Below are positions 4,782 through 49,857 of a stretch of DNA of 64,000 nt, in pieces; within the stretch, counting starts at the first letter, position 1; each line of letters begins with the position of its first letter. This stretch comes from an uncultured Ectothiorhodospiraceae bacterium (GTDB lineage: Bacteria; Pseudomonadota; Gammaproteobacteria; UBA6429; Thiohalophilaceae). Under the pieces are notes generated by a model, which was not told where the DNA came from, did not search any database, and saw only the letters and a program-made list of their open reading frames with translations. The position numbers were made by a program, and so were the translations under genes. The stretch is taken from assembly GCA_947258695.1 (NCBI GenBank), contig CAMYJG010000006.1, positions 1-64,000 of the forward strand. The letters are read 5' to 3'.

Positions 4782-6173
4782 TTAGAATACAACCGTTGCT
4801 TGTACAGACAAACGGTCTTCAATTCCATTTAAGCCATTATGAAGGTTAGTAGTCATCGGCGTTAAAGGAGCACCTGCTGTAGATATAGGATCTTTAGGAG
4901 TTGCATCCCGCATAGCATAGTTCAAAGTCAATTTCGTTTTGCGGTTCAAGTGATACTGAACACCTAACGTTAGTGTTTTGAACTCTGCTGTTAATAACGC
5001 ATGAGTTGTTGAACGATTATATACATCATAGCGTGCATCTAATTCCCATTTTGTACCAGGAATATAGTACCCTACATCTAAATAGTAACCATCAGCTTCA
5101 CCATTAAGATCTTGTGTAGCAGCCACGGCGCCAATACCCAAGTTTGGTTTTTCAGGTCCCTGGAAGATCATTCCTTCACCAGTCATGTACTCTGCCGCAA
5201 TACGCCAGTTACCACCACGGTAACGTGCGCCAATACCTGAGCGTTTACGATCATATACAACTGCATTCGCAGTATCATCGTCTGTCAAATCAACTTTTCG
5301 TTTACCATTATGTGTCCAGGCAAACATTTTTAAGCCATGCGCCCATGGACCTTTACCACCAGCAATAAGCTTTTCTGAAGACCAATAAAGATATGTATCT
5401 TCACCATCAGCATGGCCACCTGTATTTAGACCATTACCATTACCTATCATAACTGCGTAACTGTGATCCCATCCACCAGATTTAAAGCTATCAAACACCT
5501 GGATACCAATATCACGCGCTGCACCAAAAGAATCCCAACTCGCTTCATTGGCAAAAAGAGGACCACCACCACTAGCACAACCAGCTGTGTCAGTATTATT
5601 AGCAGTAACTGTGCCACACGTTGGATTAACACCCGCAGTAAAACGCTCTAACATCATTTGATTTGATACATCTGTGAAGTTAATGTAATCAAAAGTAAAG
5701 ATACCCTGGAATACTTCTTCCGGACCCGGTGTTTTAAATAAACCCATACGAATACGAGCACCATCTATATGATTAAGTGTAATACTTGCATCAGTTAACA
5801 CAGCTGCTTGTTGTTGACCGAATTTGCCCCCATCAGTAATTGCATTTTGACCAAATTCAGCTAAAACAAAATAGTTAACATTACTATCTAATGGCAGCCC
5901 TGTACCACGAACACCAATACGTGCACGTTGTAATTGGAACTGGCTTTGCTTTTCTAAGTTTGGTCCAATTCGAGTAGGTTCTGCAGCAGTACTATCACTT
6001 GTATCTTTTTGATAAGTCGGTTGTAAGAAACCCCATACTTTAGCACGAGGTGCCGCTCCCTCACGTTCTGTACCTTGTAACATTAACCAGTTTACTGCGT
6101 TAGCTGTAGAAGCGAAGCCACCCAGCATTGCTGTAACTGTTGCAGCAAGTGCAACTTTTTTAAAATTCTTCAT
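4782..6173 (-). CDS. Porin, phosphate-selective porin O/P-like
   Basis: Outer-membrane beta-barrel of 463 residues. It has a clear signal peptide cut near ANA-V (residue 26), alternating strands throughout (for example RARIGVRGTGLP and ELDARYDVYNRS) and a terminal phenylalanine typical of BamA-inserted proteins. The overall pattern resembles OprO/OprP-type porins; the substrate cannot be told. It lies 35 bases after the secreted DsrE gene with its own AGGGGA ribosome site, so the two form one operon. That operon is divergent from an ECF sigma factor that may control it. A loop segment with two cysteines (around residues 181-195) could form a disulfide. Confidence 0.82.
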   Translation of the reverse strand: MKNFKKVALAATVTAMLGGFASTANAVNWLMLQGTEREGAAPRAKVWGFLQPTYQKDTSDSTAAEPTRIGPNLEKQSQFQLQRARIGVRGTGLPLDSNVNYFVLAEFGQNAITDGGKFGQQQAAVLTDASITLNHIDGARIRMGLFKTPGPEEVFQGIFTFDYINFTDVSNQMMLERFTAGVNPTCGTVTANNTDTAGCASGGGPLFANEASWDSFGAARDIGIQVFDSFKSGGWDHSYAVMIGNGNGLNTGGHADGEDTYLYWSSEKLIAGGKGPWAHGLKMFAWTHNGKRKVDLTDDDTANAVVYDRKRSGIGARYRGGNWRIAAEYMTGEGMIFQGPEKPNLGIGAVAATQDLNGEADGYYLDVGYYIPGTKWELDARYDVYNRSTTHALLTAEFKTLTLGVQYHLNRKTKLTLNYAMRDATPKDPISTAGAPLTPMTTNLHNGLNGIEDRLSVQATVVF

Positions 6174-6208
6174 TTTTATAATTCCCCTAAAACGTCTTAA
6201 ATTTTTTA

Positions 6209-6655
6209 TTAAGGTTTAACCAATGTATAACCTTTTTTTACCAAGTCGATAATACGTACCACACCCGCAGAAACAGTGACTGCTTTAGAGTTAAGTACTG
6301 GTGGCTTACCTAAAATTTTACCCATATTACGTGTTGTATTTGCACAAGCACTGAATGTAACACCGGCACCTGCTAAAGAGGCGATACGACCTTTATTTGT
6401 ATTCTCAGCAAATAACAAACGTAAACCCGGGCCAAAGGCAACGATTTCAATATCAACTGAATCCTGGCCGTAATGTTTAACCAGGTTATTAGCCACATTA
6501 AGCACTAATGTTTGTTTAAAAGGATTTGGATCACTGATTTGTAGAACAATTTTAGCGTCGGCTAAAGATTTATCTGCAGCAATCGCCTGGCCACCGATAA
6601 ACGGAGACGCCACTAATGCTAAAAGCGCAAACGCTTTTATGAGTTTTGACTTCAT
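6209..6655 (-). CDS. Secreted DsrE-like protein
   Basis: 148 residues with a signal peptide cut near AIA-A (26/27), so it is expected in the periplasm. The mature part has a DsrE/DsrF-type alpha/beta fold: an opening strand with a DPNPFKQTL segment, a middle IEIVAFGPGLRLL strand, and VTFSACANTTRNMG with Cys104 at the place of the usual DsrE-family cysteine. DsrE-type proteins often carry sulfur on such a cysteine; whether this one does is inference. Its C-terminal half lines up with the C-terminal domain of the anti-sigma protein encoded at 7498-8241. The ribosome site includes a run of seven G on the coding strand. Confidence 0.82.
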   Translation of the reverse strand: MKSKLIKAFALLALVASPFIGGQAIAADKSLADAKIVLQISDPNPFKQTLVLNVANNLVKHYGQDSVDIEIVAFGPGLRLLFAENTNKGRIASLAGAGVTFSACANTTRNMGKILGKPPVLNSKAVTVSAGVVRIIDLVKKGYTLVKP

Positions 6656-6754
6656 TTGATTCCCCCCCTCGAGGATTATGTAACAACGAGTTATCTCGCC
6701 TTGTAATATTTAGACTTGTTCTATTATTTTTATGTAAGAACGTGTCTTCAGATA

Positions 6755-6783
6755 TTAAGACGTAAAATACCGCATTTTATTCC
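6755..6783 (-). promoter_or_regulatory. Putative ECF-type promoter for the DsrE-porin operon
   Basis: On the minus strand, GGAATA (6783-6778) and CGTCTTAA (6762-6755) are separated by 15 bases, the layout of an ECF sigma -35/-10 pair. The same pair lies in front of the divergent sigma gene. The predicted leader is about 95 bases. No transcription start data exist here, so this is inference from the shared motif. Confidence 0.55.
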
Positions 6784-6872
6784 ATGAAAATAAAAAACTT
6801 TAAATAAAGCTATTATATAAGCATTTAATTAAATGCTTATTAAAAATAGGCATGCATATTTTTCAACAATTT

Positions 6873-6899
6873 GGAATATTTTTTAGTACTAATGCGTCT
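6873..6899 (+). promoter_or_regulatory. Putative ECF-type promoter for the sigma/anti-sigma operon
   Basis: GGAATA (6873-6878) and CGTCT (6895-6899) are 16 bases apart, matching the motif pair on the opposite strand in front of the DsrE gene. This suggests the sigma factor activates its own operon. The start codon lies 42 bases after the -10-like element. Confidence 0.55.
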
Positions 6900-6941
6900 G
6901 TTATAGTACGGACTCATTTTTTTGTTGTGAGTAGTTTTTAA

Positions 6942-7496
6942 ATGAATCCGTTTGACTTTATATGTCGTAGTCCAACGTTTAAAAAGCAGTTGGAAGAAAT
7001 GCGTCCTCGTTTATACAAGGTCGCATTTTCATGGTGTCATGCTGCAGACATCGCTGATGACCTGGTGCAAGACACCGTAATGAAAGCGATACGCAATGCA
7101 CATACATTACGAGATATACAAAAAATGAATAGTTGGTTATTTACTATTTTAGCTAATTGCTGGCGTGATTATTTAAGACAACAAAAACCAACAGATGATA
7201 TAGATGAGTGTATTTTTACGGATGATGATACACCTGAGTTCGCTCAAGAAAGGCAGAACATAACCGATATTGTTCAACAAGCTGTTGCTACCTTACCACA
7301 GGGGCAACGCCAGGTTTTATCACTTGTTGACCTGGAAGGTTTTTCATATGCCGAGGTTGCAGAAATTATTGGTATACCAACAGGTACAGTAATGAGCCGT
7401 TTAAACAGGGCAAGAAAAGCCTTAGCTGAACAGTTGTTGGAACTAAAAGAAAATTTTGCACTCTCACAAAGCGCGCAAATAAGGATTGTGAAATAA
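6942..7496 (+). CDS. ECF-type RNA polymerase sigma factor
   Basis: Directs RNA polymerase to a small set of promoters. The 184 residues contain a region 2 (about 16-82; DDLVQDTVMKA and MNSWLFTILANCWRDYLR) and a region 4 (about 107-165; TLPQGQRQVLSLVDLEGFSYAEVAEIIGIPTGTVMSRL), shown here only in pieces of the fold. No region 3 or extra domain is present. The stop is one base before the start of the anti-sigma gene, so the pair is co-transcribed and probably coupled. The short C-terminal tail after residue 165 is unremarkable. Confidence 0.92.
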   Translation: MNPFDFICRSPTFKKQLEEMRPRLYKVAFSWCHAADIADDLVQDTVMKAIRNAHTLRDIQKMNSWLFTILANCWRDYLRQQKPTDDIDECIFTDDDTPEFAQERQNITDIVQQAVATLPQGQRQVLSLVDLEGFSYAEVAEIIGIPTGTVMSRLNRARKALAEQLLELKENFALSQSAQIRIVK

Positions 7497-7497
7497 C

Positions 7498-8241
7498 ATG
7501 AATGACTATAACAATAAAAAATATTCAGATGAATATCTGAATGCATTCATTGATGATGAGTTAGATACGTCAGAAAAAACAGAAATTCTGTCTGAAGTTC
7601 GCCACGACTCTGAACTAAGTCAACGTGTTTGCCAGTTACAAAAACTACATAACCTGGTGCAACTTTCTTACGAAAGTATTGAAGTACCAGAGCGCCATAA
7701 AAATAAAAACAGTGCTGTTGCTAAAAGTCGCTTTAAGTGGTTAGCTGCTGCTTCTTTATTTTTAGCCATAGGTTCTCTAACCGGATGGGTATCACATCAA
7801 CAGTTTGGTACTACAAAAACCAGCTTAGCTGAAATTGCTCATGTTACGCAGTTAAAGCCTGCTGATGAAAAATCTGAACTGTGGAAAGTGATGTTACATG
7901 TCAGCACCGATGATCCAAACCGTTTAAATATTATTTTAAATGAAACAGAAGCATTACTAAAAAGTTATGCTGAATCATCCCGTAAACTTGAGTTAGAAAT
8001 TCTTACGAATAATAAAGGCATGACCTTAGTTACCGATAATGGGGAACCTTACTCCAAACGTTTACGGAAATTACAAAGTAAATATCAAAACCTGGTATTG
8101 ATGGCGTGTGGTGAAACATTAAAACGAATCAGTGCAACTCACAAGCAACTGCCGCTACTGCCAAAAACCAGTGTTGTATCTTCTGCTTTAAACCAGATTG
8201 TAAAACGCAAAAAAGAAGGCTGGACCTATATCCGGATTTAA
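7498..8241 (+). CDS. Membrane anti-sigma factor with a C-terminal DsrE-like domain
   Basis: 247 residues in three parts. Residues 1-60 look like an anti-sigma domain (FIDDELDTSEKTEIL, RHDSELSQRVC) but lack the full zinc H-C-C set. Residues 80-98 are one membrane segment. Residues 128-247 resemble a DsrE fold: WKVMLHVSTDDPNRL, then a middle strand LELEILTNN, then LVLMACGETLKR with Cys204, ending GWTYIRI. This domain would face the periplasm, so the protein could release the sigma factor when the DsrE domain changes state. The domain homology to the secreted protein at 6209-6655 is judged by eye. It could also be annotated simply as a hypothetical DsrE protein. Confidence 0.8.
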   Translation: MNDYNNKKYSDEYLNAFIDDELDTSEKTEILSEVRHDSELSQRVCQLQKLHNLVQLSYESIEVPERHKNKNSAVAKSRFKWLAAASLFLAIGSLTGWVSHQQFGTTKTSLAEIAHVTQLKPADEKSELWKVMLHVSTDDPNRLNIILNETEALLKSYAESSRKLELEILTNNKGMTLVTDNGEPYSKRLRKLQSKYQNLVLMACGETLKRISATHKQLPLLPKTSVVSSALNQIVKRKKEGWTYIRI

Positions 8242-8541: not shown

Positions 8542-9852
8542 ATGTATAAACTCCACTATCGCAGAACCAAACGACGCCTGCTCTCTGCTAACAAGTGGAA
8601 AGTCCGCCTGGCATTCTGGCTCGCAGCCATCATGGTTGGCCTGGTTACTGTAAGTTTTACCCTGTTAGGTAATACCGCCGATCAATTTTTCCGACAGTTG
8701 CATACAGGCTCACCCTATCTTGCATATCTACTGACACCCATAGGGCTAGCCATTATTGCCTGGCTGGTTAAAGTCTATTTCCCCGGTACAGAAGGTAGTG
8801 GTATTCCACAGGCGATTGCTGCTACTTCTATGAAAAACAATCGACTACGCGAGGCTATCCTCTCCATCCGTATCGCGTTGGCAAAAATTGGCCTGACCTG
8901 CATGGGACTCATGTGTGGTGCCTCTATTGGCACTATGGGCCCCGCCGTCCACATCGGCGCTTCCATTATGCATTCACTGCGACGCCTGAAATTCTTCCGC
9001 GGCCTGGATATGACACGGGGACTGATCCTGGCTGGCGGGGCAGCAGGTATCTCGGCAGCTTTCAACACACCACTTGCCGGGATCATGTTTGCTATAGAGG
9101 AAATGAGTCGCTCCTATGAAGATAAAACCACTGGCACACTATTAATAGCCGTGATCATTGCCGGGGTAACCGCGCTGGCCATCATGGGTGACTACACTTA
9201 CTTTGGTTCAACTTCGGTTAGCCTATCCATGCTTGATGCCTGGCCAGCAGTGTTAACGCTGGGGATAACCGGTGGCCTGTTGGGTGGCATATTCAGCATG
9301 ATGCTGATTTATGGCAGCCGTGCCATTGCCCCTGTAGTTTCTGTGTATCCAATACGTGTCGCTTTTATTTGTGGTCTGTTTTTAAGCCTGCTCGGTTTTA
9401 TCTCAGGAGGTAGCACTTATGGCACCGGTTACGAGGAAGCGAAGTTAATAATGAGCGGTGAAGAAGCCATGGCAGGTTTTAGTATTTACAAGTTACTTGC
9501 TACGGTGGCTTCTTATTTAAGTGGTATTCCCGGCGGTATTTTTGCCCCATCACTTTCCGTTGGCGCGGGACTTGGCGCAGACCTGGCCGGCCTCTTCAGT
9601 GATATCCCGGTATCTGGTATCGTGCTACTGGCAATGGTCGGCTATTTTACCGGCGTGGTACAAACTCCGATTACCGCTTTTATTATTGTCATGGAGTTGA
9701 ATGATACGCCTTCCATGATACTGCCGTTAATGGCAACGGCATTACTGGCCAAGGGGGTATCCTACCTGGTCTGCCCAACACCAATTTACCAGGCACTGGC
9801 AGATGCCTACCTGTATAAAACTACTCATAAAGAAGAAAAGAGTTCGAGTTAA
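8542..9852 (+). CDS. ClC-family chloride channel/transporter
   Basis: 436-residue inner-membrane protein with about 10-12 membrane helices and the ClC signature sites: GSGIPQ (about 93-98), the GASIGTMGPAVHIG segment, FAIEEMS and GIPGGIFAPSLSVG. In most ClC proteins the second site reads G(K/R)EGP, and its glutamate is the external gate and proton residue. Here codon 132 is ATG, giving Met at that place. The second glutamate pair in FAIEEM is kept. The change suggests an ungated or uncoupled anion conduit, which is inference. No CBS domains follow. It is followed at one base by the TlpA gene. Confidence 0.9.
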   Translation: MYKLHYRRTKRRLLSANKWKVRLAFWLAAIMVGLVTVSFTLLGNTADQFFRQLHTGSPYLAYLLTPIGLAIIAWLVKVYFPGTEGSGIPQAIAATSMKNNRLREAILSIRIALAKIGLTCMGLMCGASIGTMGPAVHIGASIMHSLRRLKFFRGLDMTRGLILAGGAAGISAAFNTPLAGIMFAIEEMSRSYEDKTTGTLLIAVIIAGVTALAIMGDYTYFGSTSVSLSMLDAWPAVLTLGITGGLLGGIFSMMLIYGSRAIAPVVSVYPIRVAFICGLFLSLLGFISGGSTYGTGYEEAKLIMSGEEAMAGFSIYKLLATVASYLSGIPGGIFAPSLSVGAGLGADLAGLFSDIPVSGIVLLAMVGYFTGVVQTPITAFIIVMELNDTPSMILPLMATALLAKGVSYLVCPTPIYQALADAYLYKTTHKEEKSSS

Positions 9853-9853
9853 T

Positions 9854-10372
9854 ATGAAAACAAAAGATATCCTGATTACACTTTTTGCTATTTTGATATT
9901 AAGCAGTATTGCTTATTTATGGGTGGCCCCGTCTGGCGCACAAAAAGCGCCTGACATCACCTTGCAACTAATTGATGGAAAAAAATTACAACTTTCCAGC
10001 TTAAAGAACAAACCTGTTTTAATTACGTTCTGGGCAACGTCTTGCCCGGGCTGTATTAAAGAAATGCCTCACTTAATTGAACTGTATGAAGAATTACATC
10101 CTAAAGGATTAGAAATTATTGGTATAGCCATGCCCTATGACCGGCCCGACTATGTGATGGAAATGATCAAGCGCAAAAAAGTACCTTACCCGATTGCTCT
10201 CGATCTAAAGGGCGAAGCAATTCGTGCTTTCGGCAATGTAAGTTTAACCCCGACAACTTTCCTAATTGATAACAAAGGAAAAATTGTTAAAAAGAAAATT
10301 GGTGAGATGAAAATGGCAGCCTGGAAAAGTAGAATTATATCTATTCTTAATAAAGGTAAAACCGGGGCCTGA
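9854..10372 (+). CDS. TlpA-family thiol:disulfide oxidoreductase
   Basis: 172 residues with an N-terminal membrane anchor (about 6-24) and a periplasmic thioredoxin fold. The active site is CPGC (Cys64 and Cys67) in TFWATSCPGC, with the cis-proline segment SLTPTTFLID. It probably reduces or oxidises periplasmic disulfides; the partner is unknown. The start chosen is the ATG at 9854, one base after the ClC stop; the longer frame from 9803 lies inside the ClC gene. HemJ follows two bases after the stop, so the three genes form an operon. Confidence 0.85.
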   Translation: MKTKDILITLFAILILSSIAYLWVAPSGAQKAPDITLQLIDGKKLQLSSLKNKPVLITFWATSCPGCIKEMPHLIELYEELHPKGLEIIGIAMPYDRPDYVMEMIKRKKVPYPIALDLKGEAIRAFGNVSLTPTTFLIDNKGKIVKKKIGEMKMAAWKSRIISILNKGKTGA

Positions 10373-10374
10373 GT

Positions 10375-10797
10375 ATGTGGTTAAAAGCCTTACATTTAAT
10401 TTTTATGGTGACCTGGTTTGCCGGTTTATTTTATTTACCTCGTCTATTTGTTTATCACGCATCATCAGAAGATAAAATTAGCCGTGATCGTTTTAAAATC
10501 ATGGAACGAAAACTTTTTTACGGCATTATGACACCCGGCGCTATATTAACCATCGTCTTTGGAATCGCGATGTTAATTGATTATGCCTGGGCAAGTTTTG
10601 GACAGGATTTGTGGTTACACATAAAACTGGCACTGATCATTCTGTTAGTCATATATCATATTATGTGCGGTAAATATGTTGCAGATTTTAAACGTGACGA
10701 TAACAAACACTCCCATGTTTATTACCGTTGGTTCAATGAAGCACCAGTATTGATCCTGGTTGCTATTATTATTCTGGCCTCAGTCAAGCCTTTTTAA
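10375..10797 (+). CDS. hemJ: Protoporphyrinogen IX oxidase HemJ
   Basis: Membrane enzyme that oxidises protoporphyrinogen IX in heme synthesis. The 140-residue length, four membrane helices and opening WLKALHLIFMVTWFAGLFYLPRLFVYH are characteristic; the histidine in KALH near the start and the conserved helix-3 HIKL segment fit the family. CopD-like membrane proteins are the main alternative, but the FAGLFYLPRLFVYH string is specific for HemJ. It ends the ClC-tlpA-hemJ operon and sits just before a Fur-box gene set. Confidence 0.88.
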   Translation: MWLKALHLIFMVTWFAGLFYLPRLFVYHASSEDKISRDRFKIMERKLFYGIMTPGAILTIVFGIAMLIDYAWASFGQDLWLHIKLALIILLVIYHIMCGKYVADFKRDDNKHSHVYYRWFNEAPVLILVAIIILASVKPF

Positions 10798-10843
10798 AAA
10801 CCTCAGCCAAACGACACCTAACCACAAGAAAATCAATATTAAC

Positions 10844-10865
10844 GCAAATGATAATGATTTGCATT
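10844..10865 (+). promoter_or_regulatory. Fur box upstream of the cytochrome gene
   Basis: GCAAATGATAATGATTTGCATT has perfect 6-bp inverted ends GCAAAT/ATTTGC around GATAATG and matches the Fur consensus (GATAATGATWATCATTATC) closely. It lies about 75 bases before the start of the c-type cytochrome, a usual place for iron repression. Confidence 0.8.
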
Positions 10866-10941
10866 TAGAGCCCCGTTAATTTATAGTGCCTTTCAAATAT
10901 CCTCATGGTGTGAAAGACCTGCAATAAAACGGAATCTCTAA

Positions 10942-11424
10942 ATGAAAAAGCACAGCTTGCTCCTTCCTATTATTTTACTCTTTTTAAATCAATCTGTTAG
11001 CGCCTCAGACTGGCGACAGGCGGCTAAATCAAATGACAAAATTAATAACCTGGTACAAGTGATGCCTGGCGCCTCTACCCTGATGCTGCAAATGGAAGAG
11101 CGGTATCGAAACCTGTACTGGTCAGCTAAACAAAAAAAATGGGAGTTTGCTGAATACCAGATCGAAGAAATGCAAGATCTGATTCAAACCCTGATGATTA
11201 CTCGCCCAAAACGCAAAAAAACAGCCCTGAAATTTTTTCAAACGGCTTTTAAACATTTTCCCGTTGCTTTAAAAAAACAAAACTGGTCCTATTTTGAAAA
11301 TAGCTTTGAATATATGCGTAAGCAATGCATGACCTGCCACGTTGAAAATGATCATGCTTTTATAGTTTTACCTAAACAGCCACGTATCGGAAATAGCCTG
11401 GTTCTGGAATCACAAACACAATAA
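10942..11424 (+). CDS. Periplasmic mono-heme c-type cytochrome
   Basis: 160 residues with a signal peptide cut near VSA-S (about 21). The mature part is mainly helical, and one heme site CMTCH (Cys129, Cys132, His133) lies near the C-terminus, as in class II (cytochrome c'-like) proteins. A Fur box precedes it, and a second Fur box precedes the following porin, so both are expected to rise in iron-poor cells. A role in electron delivery for iron reduction is inferred from context. I do not recognise a named family beyond this. Confidence 0.75.
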   Translation: MKKHSLLLPIILLFLNQSVSASDWRQAAKSNDKINNLVQVMPGASTLMLQMEERYRNLYWSAKQKKWEFAEYQIEEMQDLIQTLMITRPKRKKTALKFFQTAFKHFPVALKKQNWSYFENSFEYMRKQCMTCHVENDHAFIVLPKQPRIGNSLVLESQTQ

Positions 11425-11631
11425 TATTTTAAAAAATAGCCTGTTTTAGCATCACCAGGGCACTAAAAAGATTTTTTATATATCGCTGCTGTATACAAAA
11501 CCCAGGCTAGTATCCCGTCACAAGCAATCCACTATTTATCAAATAGTTTAATAATTTCAGCGAGTTATGTTGTTTTCAATCATTTATTGGCAGTAATGAC
11601 TCGCATAATCCATGACAACCCATCTAAATAT

Positions 11632-11651
11632 AAATGAGAATGATTTGCATT
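11632..11651 (+). promoter_or_regulatory. Fur box upstream of the His-rich porin
   Basis: AAATGAGAATGATTTGCATT shares the core of the Fur box at 10844 and of the consensus. It lies about 66 bases before the porin start. The rest of the 11425-11717 gap shows no gene. Confidence 0.78.
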
Positions 11652-11717
11652 AAGCTTTCTTTTTCAGTATAGTTCCACCATACCTAATGACATTTATATT
11701 TATTGATGAGGAATAAC

Positions 11718-12884
11718 ATGAACACATTTAAGAAAACTGCGCTGTTGGCAGCAATATTGAGCACGCCTCTCGTGGCACAGGCCGCAACAAGCTCTGAACT
11801 ACAACAGGAAATTAATGCGCTGAAAAAACAAAATAAAATGATCATGGAGCGTATGGATGCTTCCATGGACATGATGGAAAACAAAAAATCTGGCCATGGT
11901 CATGGCAGTAGAGGCACAACAACAGTTGGTGGTTATGGTGAACTTCATTACAACAACCTGAATGGCGAAGGTGGTGCTTCTGACAAAACAGAAATGGATT
12001 TCCATCGTTTCGTATTATTCTTTGGTCACGAGTTTTCTAAAGATATTCGCTTCTTTTCCGAGCTTGAACTAGAGCATTCTTTAGCGGGAGATGGCGCAGA
12101 TAAACCAGGTGAAGTGGAACTGGAACAGGCCTATATCGAGTTTGACATTAATAACACGATGCGCGCCAAAGGTGGTTTATTCCTTGTTCCGGTTGGTATT
12201 ATGAATGAAACTCACGAACCGAATACCTTTTACGGCACCGAACGTAACCCGGTAGAAAAAAATATCATTCCAGCTACCTGGTGGGAAGCCGGTGCTGCTT
12301 TAAGTGGTGAATTCAGTAAAGGGCTATCTTATGATTTAGCTCTAACATCAGGCCTCGACCTTAATACAGCCGATAAAATTCGTTCTGGTCGTCAAAAAGT
12401 CGCTGAAGCACGTGCTGACTCTCTAATGATCACGGGTCGCCTCAAGTATACAGGTACTCCTGGACTTGAACTGGCAACCACTGTTGCGACCATAGATGAT
12501 TACACCCAGGGTCAGGGTACTAAAAACGGTGCAACTATGATTGAAGCGCACGCTGTATATAATACGGGTAACTTTGGATTACGCGCTTTATATGCAACAT
12601 GGGATGTTGATGGTAAAACCACAGGCTACGATGAACAATCAGGTTGGTATATTGAGCCGTCATACAAAATCAGTCCAAAACTTGGCGTATTTGCACGCTA
12701 CAATAAATACGACAACCAGGCTGGAACAGGTGGAGCTGGTGATACAGAAAAAAAGCAAACGGATATTGGCGTGAATTACTGGCCACATGAAGATGTTGTT
12801 ATTAAAGTTGATTACCAAACTCAGGACAACGCCAATAACGCAGACCAAAACGGTTTTAATATTGGCATTGGTTATCAATTCTAA
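11718..12884 (+). CDS. Outer-membrane porin with His-rich linker, Fur-regulated
   Basis: 388 residues: a signal peptide cut near AQA-A (about 22), a short coiled coil (about 28-58, with several methionines), a GHGHGS histidine stretch, then a beta-barrel ending in GIGYQF. The terminal phenylalanine fits BamA insertion. The start at 11718 is chosen because GATGAGG lies just upstream; TTG and ATG codons at 11703 and 11706 are less likely. The His and Met stretch may bind metal. The Fur box upstream and the flavin and PepSY genes downstream suggest a role in iron uptake. Confidence 0.82.
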   Translation: MNTFKKTALLAAILSTPLVAQAATSSELQQEINALKKQNKMIMERMDASMDMMENKKSGHGHGSRGTTTVGGYGELHYNNLNGEGGASDKTEMDFHRFVLFFGHEFSKDIRFFSELELEHSLAGDGADKPGEVELEQAYIEFDINNTMRAKGGLFLVPVGIMNETHEPNTFYGTERNPVEKNIIPATWWEAGAALSGEFSKGLSYDLALTSGLDLNTADKIRSGRQKVAEARADSLMITGRLKYTGTPGLELATTVATIDDYTQGQGTKNGATMIEAHAVYNTGNFGLRALYATWDVDGKTTGYDEQSGWYIEPSYKISPKLGVFARYNKYDNQAGTGGAGDTEKKQTDIGVNYWPHEDVVIKVDYQTQDNANNADQNGFNIGIGYQF

Positions 12885-28717: not shown

Positions 28718-29926
28718 TCAACGTTTTTTACGTGAACTTTTCTTCTTTGCCTTTTTCTTTGCCTTTTTCTTGGCTTTTTTCTTCGCTACTTTTTTCTTGG
28801 CTTTCTTCTTAGCTGCTTTCTTTTTCGCCTTTTTCTTGGCTTTCTTCTTAGCGACTTTCTTCTTCGCCTTTTTCTTGGCTTTTTTCTTGGTTACTTTTTT
28901 CTTGGCCTTCTTCTTAGCGACTTTCTTCTTGGCCTTTTTCTTAGCGACTTTCTTTTTCGCCTTTTTCTTGGCTTTTTTCTTGGTTACTTTTTTCTTGGCC
29001 TTCTTCTTGGCGACTTTCTTCTTCGCCTTTTTCTTGGCTTTTTTCTTCATTACTTTTTTCTTGGCCTTCTTCTTGGCGACTTTCTTCTTAGCGACCTTCT
29101 TCTTCGCTGTTTTCTTCTTAGCGGCTTTTTTCTTGCTTGTTTTTTTCTTGGTTACTTTTTTCTTTTTAGCCGCTGATTTTTTACTGGCTTTTTTCTTTTT
29201 CGCTGCTTTTTTAGCAGGAGCAGCTTGCGCTGGTTTCTGTTCTGCAGCAATTGCTTCAGATTTAGCTTCTATACTGCTTGGTAAACTTTCCAAAACACGT
29301 TGAATAGCCGAGAAAATTGAATCAACTTCACCAACCCCGCGTACAGTACGTAATTTTCCTTGTTTACGGAAATAATCCACCAAGGGTGCAGTTTCTGCTT
29401 CATAAACTTTTAATCGGTTGCTGATGGTATCTTCATTATCATCTGCCCGATGTTCTAATCCGCCACCACATTTATCACAACGCCCCTCGATACGAGGAGG
29501 AGAAGTATGAACATTGTACATTTGGCCACATGAACCACAGGTGCGACGACCCGTTAAACGCTGCATTAAAATATTAAACTCGACATCAATCAATAATGCT
29601 GCCTGAAGTGGTTTACCAACTTCATCAAGTAATTCGTCCAGTGCTTCTGCCTGCGGAATATTGCGAGGAAAGCCATCGAGAATAAAACCATTTTGAGCAT
29701 CACTTTCGGCAAGACGTTCCTTAATCATACCTAGTACGATTTCATCGGAGACCAGTTGACCGGCATCCATGGCTTGTTTTGCTTTCATCCCTAATGGTGA
29801 GCCTGCTTTTACTGCTGCACGTAATAAATCGCCTGTTGAGATTTGTGGAATAGCATATTTATCAACTAGCAGTTTAGCTTGTGTGCCTTTTCCGCCGCCC
29901 GGGGCACCTATTAATACGATTCTCAT
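28718..29926 (-). CDS. adk: Adenylate kinase with a long lysine-repeat tail
   Basis: Interconverts ATP, ADP and AMP. Residues 1-214 are a complete enzyme: P-loop GAPGGGKGTQ (8-17), the zinc LID cysteines 130, 133, 150 and 153, and LDGFPRN. Bacterial Adk normally ends near residue 215-220. Here a linker rich in Ala/Gln (215-238) is followed by about 164 residues of which roughly two thirds are lysine, in KKKA, KKKV and KKKVT units. The tail is like histone-H1-type proteins. Its DNA (28721-29212) is a purine-rich repeat on the coding strand. The kinase part has no missing residue. The frame stays open throughout, so it is not a simple frameshift. Confidence 0.93.
   Translation of the reverse strand: MRIVLIGAPGGGKGTQAKLLVDKYAIPQISTGDLLRAAVKAGSPLGMKAKQAMDAGQLVSDEIVLGMIKERLAESDAQNGFILDGFPRNIPQAEALDELLDEVGKPLQAALLIDVEFNILMQRLTGRRTCGSCGQMYNVHTSPPRIEGRCDKCGGGLEHRADDNEDTISNRLKVYEAETAPLVDYFRKQGKLRTVRGVGEVDSIFSAIQRVLESLPSSIEAKSEAIAAEQKPAQAAPAKKAAKKKKASKKSAAKKKKVTKKKTSKKKAAKKKTAKKKVAKKKVAKKKAKKKVMKKKAKKKAKKKVAKKKAKKKVTKKKAKKKAKKKVAKKKAKKKVAKKKAKKKVTKKKAKKKAKKKVAKKKAKKKAKKKAAKKKAKKKVAKKKAKKKAKKKAKKKSSRKKR
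28721..29212 (-). repeat. Lysine-codon tandem repeat within adk
   Basis: This is the DNA of the basic tail. A block of about 22 codons (VT or VM, then KKKAKKKAKKK, then VAKKKAKKK) recurs three times, with shorter KKKA units between. Synonymous codons vary between copies, so selection on the protein is likely rather than recent slippage alone. Confidence 0.85.
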
Positions 29927-48543: not shown

Positions 48544-49857
48544 TTATCTTCTTGTTAACTTCATCATTATATTTGTTTTACTGCGCAGATTAACCTGCGG
48601 ATCAATCTCTACCGCTTCTTGTTCCGCCAGTTCTAACTTAAATTGTTGCGCCATGGTGCCAAGATGAATCTGCATTTCAACAATACTGAAATAATCGCCG
48701 ATACAACGACGTGGCCCGGCTGAAAAAGGAATAAAGGCAAACTTATGACGTTTTTTTACTTCATCAGGCAAAAAATGATCCGGGTTAAACTCTTCCGGCT
48801 TATCCCAATGCTGTGGATGGCGGTGTATAAAATACGGTGCAAAAAAGATATTAGTACCGGCAGGAATATTATAGCCACCGATAGTATCATCAGCGATTGC
48901 TGTTCTTGAATAAAGCCAGACCGGTGGATATAAGCGTAAGGTTTCTTCAAGCACCTGCTGAGTAAACTGCAAAGTAGCCACTTCTGCAAAAGTAGGAATA
49001 TCACCGGCTACGTTACTATCGACTTCATCATGTAATTTTTTTTCTTCTTCAGGATGAAGCGCTAATAAATACCAGGCCCAGTTTAAAGTAGTGGCACCGG
49101 TTTCATGCCCGGCAATGATCATCGTCATGACTTCATCGATGATTTCTTTATCACTCATGCCTTCACCGGAATCTTTATCCACTGCTTGCATAAATGCTTC
49201 GAGGAAATCATCATAACGTTTAGATGATTCACGACGCTCATTAATTAATTGTTGCACTAAAGACTGTAAAGCCCGGAACTTCATAACAAATTGAATATCA
49301 CGCGCCAGGTCTTGAGTCAGAACGTCAAACGGATTTTGTCCTTCCTGTTGTGTCAGCTTATCCAGGTCATCACTGAACAGGCAGCGCAGTATAATCTCGA
49401 GTGACAGTTCACTCATGTCAGCAGTAAGATTAATTAACTCGTTGTTATCTGCTTTTTCTTGCCACTTAGCTAACCAGTCCTGATTCGCTTTTTGCATCTT
49501 CTGCGCCAGGCCATCGATACACTTACGGCTAAAAGCCGGCTGGATCATTCTTCGCTGTTTACGCCAAAACGCACCATCGCTGACAATAATGCCATTCCCC
49601 AACAGCATTTTTACCCGCTCAAAACCCGGGCCTTTTTTATAGTTTTCATGGTTTTTCACCAGGATGGCTTTCACCGCATCCGGATCATTGATCAAAATCG
49701 TATTATTAGCCCGGGTAACGGGTTTTATCAGGCAAAAATCACCGTATTCTGCGATATAATCTGCCACCTTTGGAAACGACTCATCCGTGGTATTCAGATC
49801 ATACGGCGTATCCGGGCCAGCAGGTAAATTGAGTGTTTGAGCTTGAGTTGAGGTCAT
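48544..49857 (-). CDS. Cytochrome P450
   Basis: 437 residues from ATG 49857 (a TTG at 49878 is in frame). It has the I-helix AGHETGATTL, the EETLRLYPP (ExxR) motif and the heme site FSAGPRRCIGD with Cys385. No membrane anchor. As it is co-transcribed with an acyl-AMP ligase-ACP, it may oxidise a carrier-bound fatty acid, which is inference. The redox partner is not in the unit. Confidence 0.9.
   Translation of the reverse strand: MTSTQAQTLNLPAGPDTPYDLNTTDESFPKVADYIAEYGDFCLIKPVTRANNTILINDPDAVKAILVKNHENYKKGPGFERVKMLLGNGIIVSDGAFWRKQRRMIQPAFSRKCIDGLAQKMQKANQDWLAKWQEKADNNELINLTADMSELSLEIILRCLFSDDLDKLTQQEGQNPFDVLTQDLARDIQFVMKFRALQSLVQQLINERRESSKRYDDFLEAFMQAVDKDSGEGMSDKEIIDEVMTMIIAGHETGATTLNWAWYLLALHPEEEKKLHDEVDSNVAGDIPTFAEVATLQFTQQVLEETLRLYPPVWLYSRTAIADDTIGGYNIPAGTNIFFAPYFIHRHPQHWDKPEEFNPDHFLPDEVKKRHKFAFIPFSAGPRRCIGDYFSIVEMQIHLGTMAQQFKLELAEQEAVEIDPQVNLRSKTNIMMKLTRR

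Follow-up and report, generated by a model that had tools for sequence, protein, structure and literature searches.

What would an ECF sigma factor paired with a DsrE-type membrane protein sense, and which genes would it switch? The question is raised by two divergent operons in the window, i.e., the whole stretch of 64,000 nucleotides (64 kb) that was analysed. The rightward operon encodes an ECF sigma factor of 184 aa (6942..7496, + strand) and an anti-sigma of 247 aa with one transmembrane segment and a C-terminal DsrE domain (7498..8241, + strand), the ORF of which starts one base past the sigma stop codon. The leftward operon encodes a secreted DsrE-family protein of 148 aa with a signal-peptide-like N-terminus (6209..6655, - strand) and, as its second gene, an outer-membrane porin of 463 aa (4782..6173, - strand). 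All four ORFs were found where the initial annotation, made from the letters of the window, had placed them, as were the two cysteines that it singled out, Cys204 of the anti-sigma (in LMACGET) and Cys104 of the secreted protein (in FSACANT). The sigma factor consists of regions 2 and 4 only (Sigma70_r2 and Sigma70_r4_2) and belongs to the ECF superfamily TIGR02937 (E 1.7e-29), and the porin matches Porin_4 (PF13609) at E 2.2e-6, barely above the cut-off.

Domains and fold of the two DsrE proteins

The AlphaFold model of the anti-sigma (mean pLDDT 85.5, mostly >90 in the DsrE part) divides the protein into an N-terminal helical domain at residues 11-59 (helices 11-18, 24-36 and 38-59), a transmembrane segment at ~78-103 and a DsrE domain at 128-247. 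Among 80 homologues, lysine and arginine residues around the transmembrane segment averaged 3.8 on its N side vs 0.9 on its C side, so the C-terminal DsrE part is predicted to be periplasmic and the N-terminal helical domain cytoplasmic. The N-terminus gave weak zf-HC2 matches in 14 homologues and weak RseA_N matches in three. As modelled, with a helical domain ahead of a single transmembrane segment, the protein is an anti-sigma of the class I (membrane) kind, and the adjacency of the two genes suggests that it binds the ECF sigma encoded next to it.

The DsrE identity of residues 128-247 had been proposed from resemblance, together with a structural comparison of both DsrE-like parts with DsrEFH. 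A single-sequence search of the anti-sigma with Pfam DsrE (PF02635) was sub-threshold (E 0.0022, 18.6 bits vs a gathering cut-off of 22.7), and the same family matched 31 of the 80 homologues at E <=0.01 (best 2.1e-8). A profile of the 80 anti-sigmas matched the DsrE-family structure MTH1491 (1l1s) at E 4.9e-18, Foldseek aligned the model with 1l1s at TM 0.87 by target length, and a second structural alignment (VIA) gave Z scores of 17.1 to 1l1s, 11.8 to TusBCD and 11.6 to DsrEFH. By its model, this region is a true DsrE fold, and the proposed identity was upheld. In an unrooted quick tree from a short alignment, all 80 anti-sigma DsrE domains lay to the same side of a branch with full support, a topology consistent with a single fusion.

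For the secreted protein, the single-sequence Pfam DsrE match was below the cut-off (E 0.019), a profile of 46 secreted partners matched 1l1s at E 3.2e-28, and the AlphaFold model (mean pLDDT 87.8, mostly >90 in the DsrE part) matched 1l1s with TM 0.94 by target length; as modelled, the partner is a DsrE fold with a conserved cysteine. Cys104, which is conserved in at least 90% of secreted partners, closes strand 100-104 of this model at the same position as Cys204, which closes strand 199-204 (the third core strand) of the anti-sigma model and aligns with a cysteine of MTH1491. Cys204 was invariant in 29 of 29 relatives and then in 80 of 80 members of a larger homologue set, across which D19 and W242 are invariant as well; Cys45, in the cytoplasmic part, is the sole other frequent anti-sigma cysteine (68/80).

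Conservation of the unit and its promoters

The anti-sigma query matched 51 of 96 relatives at E 0.001, some of them in the DsrE part only, and 180 stretches of species genomes encode a relative of it, the named ones being largely from sulfur oxidisers. Linkage was counted over 55 testable loci, i.e., those with enough flank. A sigma gene adjoins the DsrE anti-sigma gene in 54 of these loci, a secreted DsrE gene lies within 2.5 kb in 41 (29 divergent, 10 downstream) and a porin homologue is present at 31, and, outside these families, none was shared by more than 14 of the 81 clustered loci. The arrangement is not chance, and the co-occurrence across genomes on which the proposed circuit had been made to depend holds throughout the class. 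A need for an adjacent secreted DsrE was rejected, as 14 of the 55 testable loci have none nearby; furthermore, in one genome without a linked partner the unlinked dsrE region had no promoter site, and together these results suggest that the partner may not be essential.

An ECF-type promoter-like site, GGAATA-N15/16-CGTC, stands ahead of both operons: GGAATAAAATGCGGTATTTTACGTC (6759..6783, - strand) precedes the dsrE-porin operon and GGAATATTTTTTAGTACTAATGCGTC (6873..6898, + strand) precedes the sigma/anti-sigma operon. A matrix trained without the window placed these two sites at the top of the 64 kb (28.6 and 22.1, respectively), the next site scoring 16.0 at 48728. When a wider motif was used (GGAAN, spacer 15-18, CGTC; expectation from shuffles), it was found to precede 64 of 84 sigma genes elsewhere (1.2 expected), 38 of 73 dsrE genes (1.0 expected) and only 5 of 39 porins (0.7 expected), the low last count fitting a porin gene that comes second in its operon. 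The suggestion of the initial annotation that the sigma raises DsrE and porin thus finds support at the sequence level, in a common promoter on both sides that is kept in many genomes.

Genome-wide, the source genome contained eight exact motif hits vs four and five with reversed controls; three of the six non-local hits were within long ORFs and the others had no recognisable sulfur target. A matrix scan found no site at this genome's DsrE paralogues or in its soxB region. A wide regulon in the source genome was rejected on these results, and, because its own soxB region is siteless, the targets predicted here are local genes only, i.e., a regulon confined to the divergon.

Association with SoxB and sox promoters

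The link to sulfur proved firmer than could have been known from the window, through near-complete co-occurrence with SoxB and through sox promoters that carry the motif in some lineages. In a sample of 370 genomes of the class, 71 of which had a full-length anti-sigma match, SoxB was found in 70 of these 71 vs 92 of the 299 others (Fisher 9e-29, without species-tree correction); by family, the approximate value was 9e-16, and the association spans about 39 families. The anti-sigma system marks sulfur oxidisers.

We compared regions of up to ~15 kb around soxB in 40 anti-sigma genomes and in 40 SoxB genomes without the anti-sigma. The exact motif occurred at 22 sites in 14 of the 40 anti-sigma loci vs two sites in two of the 40 others, control patterns gave about two sites, and most of the sites immediately precede soxX, soxB or a transporter gene of the YeeE/TsuA-like (SoxT-like) kind. 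With the matrix trained on sigma/dsrE promoters, and after exclusion of seven loci that had been chosen for their motif or linkage, sites were present in 10 of 40 soxB promoters with the anti-sigma vs 0 of 39 without it (p 0.001) and in 7 of 16 vs 2 of 21 soxX promoters, respectively (p 0.024). On the SoxB tree, ~4 pairs of 11 were for this association and 0.3 against, which is not significant (median p 0.125). The two exceptions among the genomes counted as lacking the anti-sigma are G101 and G359, both with soxX sites; each gave anti-sigma-like matches at the N-terminus, none of them full-length. Because the GGAAT/CGTC consensus is general to the ECF26 type, these sites might also serve other ECF sigmas. 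To judge from these sequences, it appears that in many sulfur oxidisers a DsrE-built membrane protein restrains a switch for DsrE, porin and sometimes sox genes.

A candidate sensor of periplasmic sulfane sulfur

DsrE-family proteins carry sulfane sulfur on a cysteine. We consider it probable, at roughly 60%, that the sigma/anti-sigma pair senses periplasmic sulfane sulfur and works through Cys204. In such a mechanism, the cytoplasmic domain of the anti-sigma would hold the ECF sigma, and Cys204 of the periplasmic DsrE domain would accept or bind sulfane sulfur, as a persulfide, when the Sox system oxidises thiosulfate or another reduced sulfur compound. The sulfur might reach Cys204 directly or from Cys104 of the secreted DsrE carrier, and its presence on the anti-sigma would free the sigma, by proteolysis or conformational change. 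From the GGAATA-N15/16-CGTC promoters, the freed sigma would transcribe both divergent operons, its own and dsrE-porin, and in several lineages it would also transcribe soxX, soxB and the SoxT/TsuA-like transporter gene. The secreted DsrE could either activate or damp the response. A broader proposal, that this is a widespread and undescribed system of sulfur-oxidising gamma- and betaproteobacteria in which DsrE was fused once to an anti-sigma, reads periplasmic sulfane sulfur and switches sox directly in several lineages, with the secreted paralogue of DsrE in the role of carrier or co-sensor, seems to us evenly poised between right and wrong. The sensing of extracytoplasmic reduced sulfur for sox induction in gamma- and betaproteobacterial oxidisers becomes directly testable here, given a candidate sensor with a single cysteine to mutate, a promoter of defined sequence and hosts that can be cultured (Thiohalophilus, Thiohalobacter, Sulfurisoma and Sedimenticola); such a system would likewise bring DsrE into the repertoire of sensor domains known for anti-sigma factors.

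The sox and sulfur-pathway regulators found in the literature, i.e., SoxR, sHdrR (ArsR type) and CsoR TTHA1953 (PMC10451225, PMC12423496, PMC10318464), are cytoplasmic DNA-binding proteins, whereas the regulator here is a transmembrane anti-sigma with a DsrE domain predicted to be periplasmic. Control of thiosulfate-oxidation genes is common ground, as is sensing of sulfane sulfur by cysteine, which has been shown for SoxR and is proposed here; SoxR uses two sensing cysteines, in contrast to the one invariant, predicted periplasmic cysteine of the anti-sigma. The modelled fold is shared with MTH1491 (1l1s), DsrEFH (2hy5), TusBCD (2d1p) and PF02635, but DsrEFH and TusBCD are free cytoplasmic carriers, whereas the domain here is fused to an anti-sigma, is predicted to be periplasmic and has a secreted partner. 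The RseA/RseB and FecR types likewise have a membrane anti-sigma, a periplasmic sensor and possibly a periplasmic partner; unlike in these, the periplasmic part is here modelled as a DsrE fold, and the unit has no TonB-dependent receptor. Our literature search, with the 2021 ECF reclassification outside its scope, found no DsrE anti-sigma and no ECF control of sox.

The closest known kind, set beside this system by promoter consensus, is that of the ECF26 sigmas. ECF26 pairs control sulfite oxidation (S. meliloti RpoE4/RpoE1-SorT and Starkeya novella SigE-SorAB), with RpoE4 and SigE responding to sulfite and SnRpoE1 to tetrathionate (PMC3511301, PMC6527743). Their consensus of -35 GGAAT and -10 CGTC (PMC6527743) is matched by the motif here, a likeness of promoters. 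Both kinds pair an ECF sigma with an adjacent anti-sigma, and the response to sulfur compounds and the sulfur-oxidation targets next to the regulator are counted as shared, with the signal here a proposed one. The targets are SorT/SorAB and the hosts alpha- and betaproteobacteria for ECF26, in contrast to dsrE-porin and, in some lineages, sox in sulfur-oxidising gamma- and betaproteobacteria here; no DsrE sensor domain was found for the ECF26 pairs, either in passages of the two papers or in a literature search for DsrE and anti-sigma. By this precedent, and with Sox organisms able to produce sulfite, Cys204 might instead answer to sulfite or a polythionate, for the control of detoxification or uptake and with no persulfide as signal. 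We regard this as unlikely: the candidate targets comprise sox, dsrE and porin genes, and the family is known for carrying sulfane sulfur.

It is also conceivable, if quite improbable, that the secreted DsrE exerts negative feedback in the manner of RseB or CpxP, docking on the anti-sigma DsrE domain as a hetero-oligomer and keeping inhibition in place until sulfur loading removes it. The related folds of the two proteins, the common promoter motif of a co-regulated pair and the hetero-oligomers of DsrE-type subunits that DsrEFH and TusBCD form would all suit this arrangement, but the 14 of 55 loci that have no secreted DsrE nearby speak against it, and the invariance of Cys204 suggests that the sensor itself does chemistry or binds a ligand.

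Finally, sensing of sulfane sulfur through Cys204 is to be set against a general sensor of envelope or oxidative thiol stress, with DsrE a mere scaffold, Cys204 meeting oxidants and the sulfur link a correlation of lineage, which is highly improbable: envelope stress is a frequent signal for ECF systems, and porins are often among the targets of stress responses, but no result obtained here favours such a sensor, SoxB accompanies the anti-sigma in 70 of 71 genomes from about 39 families, the motif stands ahead of sox genes and the pair can be linked to the sox cluster. Such linkage was observed in G389, G182, G279 and G192, where the sigma/anti-sigma pair adjoins or sits inside a sox cluster; SoxA, X, B, Y and Z of the examples were checked against NCBIfam, with SoxY slightly below the cut-off. 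A constant placement of sox genes beside the unit was rejected, as most loci have none and soxB is no more than a few kb away in 4 of the 71 genomes. Among the neighbour families, one or more members of a SoxB-like gene cluster are probably something other than SoxB.

Variation in copy number and distribution

Tandem copies of the sigma factor and anti-sigma genes were observed at locus L068 (7834-11220), and loci L093 and L095 (about 9417-12429) each contained two secreted dsrE genes with a second sigma-like match on the 3' side. The system was also present at L086 and L105, whose records are labelled Acidobacteria and Desulfobacterales; these occurrences may reflect transfer, or else mis-binning.

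Additional promoter-like sites

A third promoter-like site was found in the window at 48728 (+), with a matrix score of 16.0. In the set of stretches L138, L153 and L137, one response-regulator gene was preceded by motif sites in two related genomes (G008 and G025), and a gene for a PstS-like binding protein also had a motif site on its 5' side.

Other genes in the window

A ClC-type chloride channel gene (8542-9852, +) lies a short way 3' of the anti-sigma gene, and such a gene was also a neighbor in some relatives' loci. Elsewhere, an adenylate kinase-like ORF (28718-29926, -; 402 aa in total) has a long, lysine/alanine-rich C-terminal tail.
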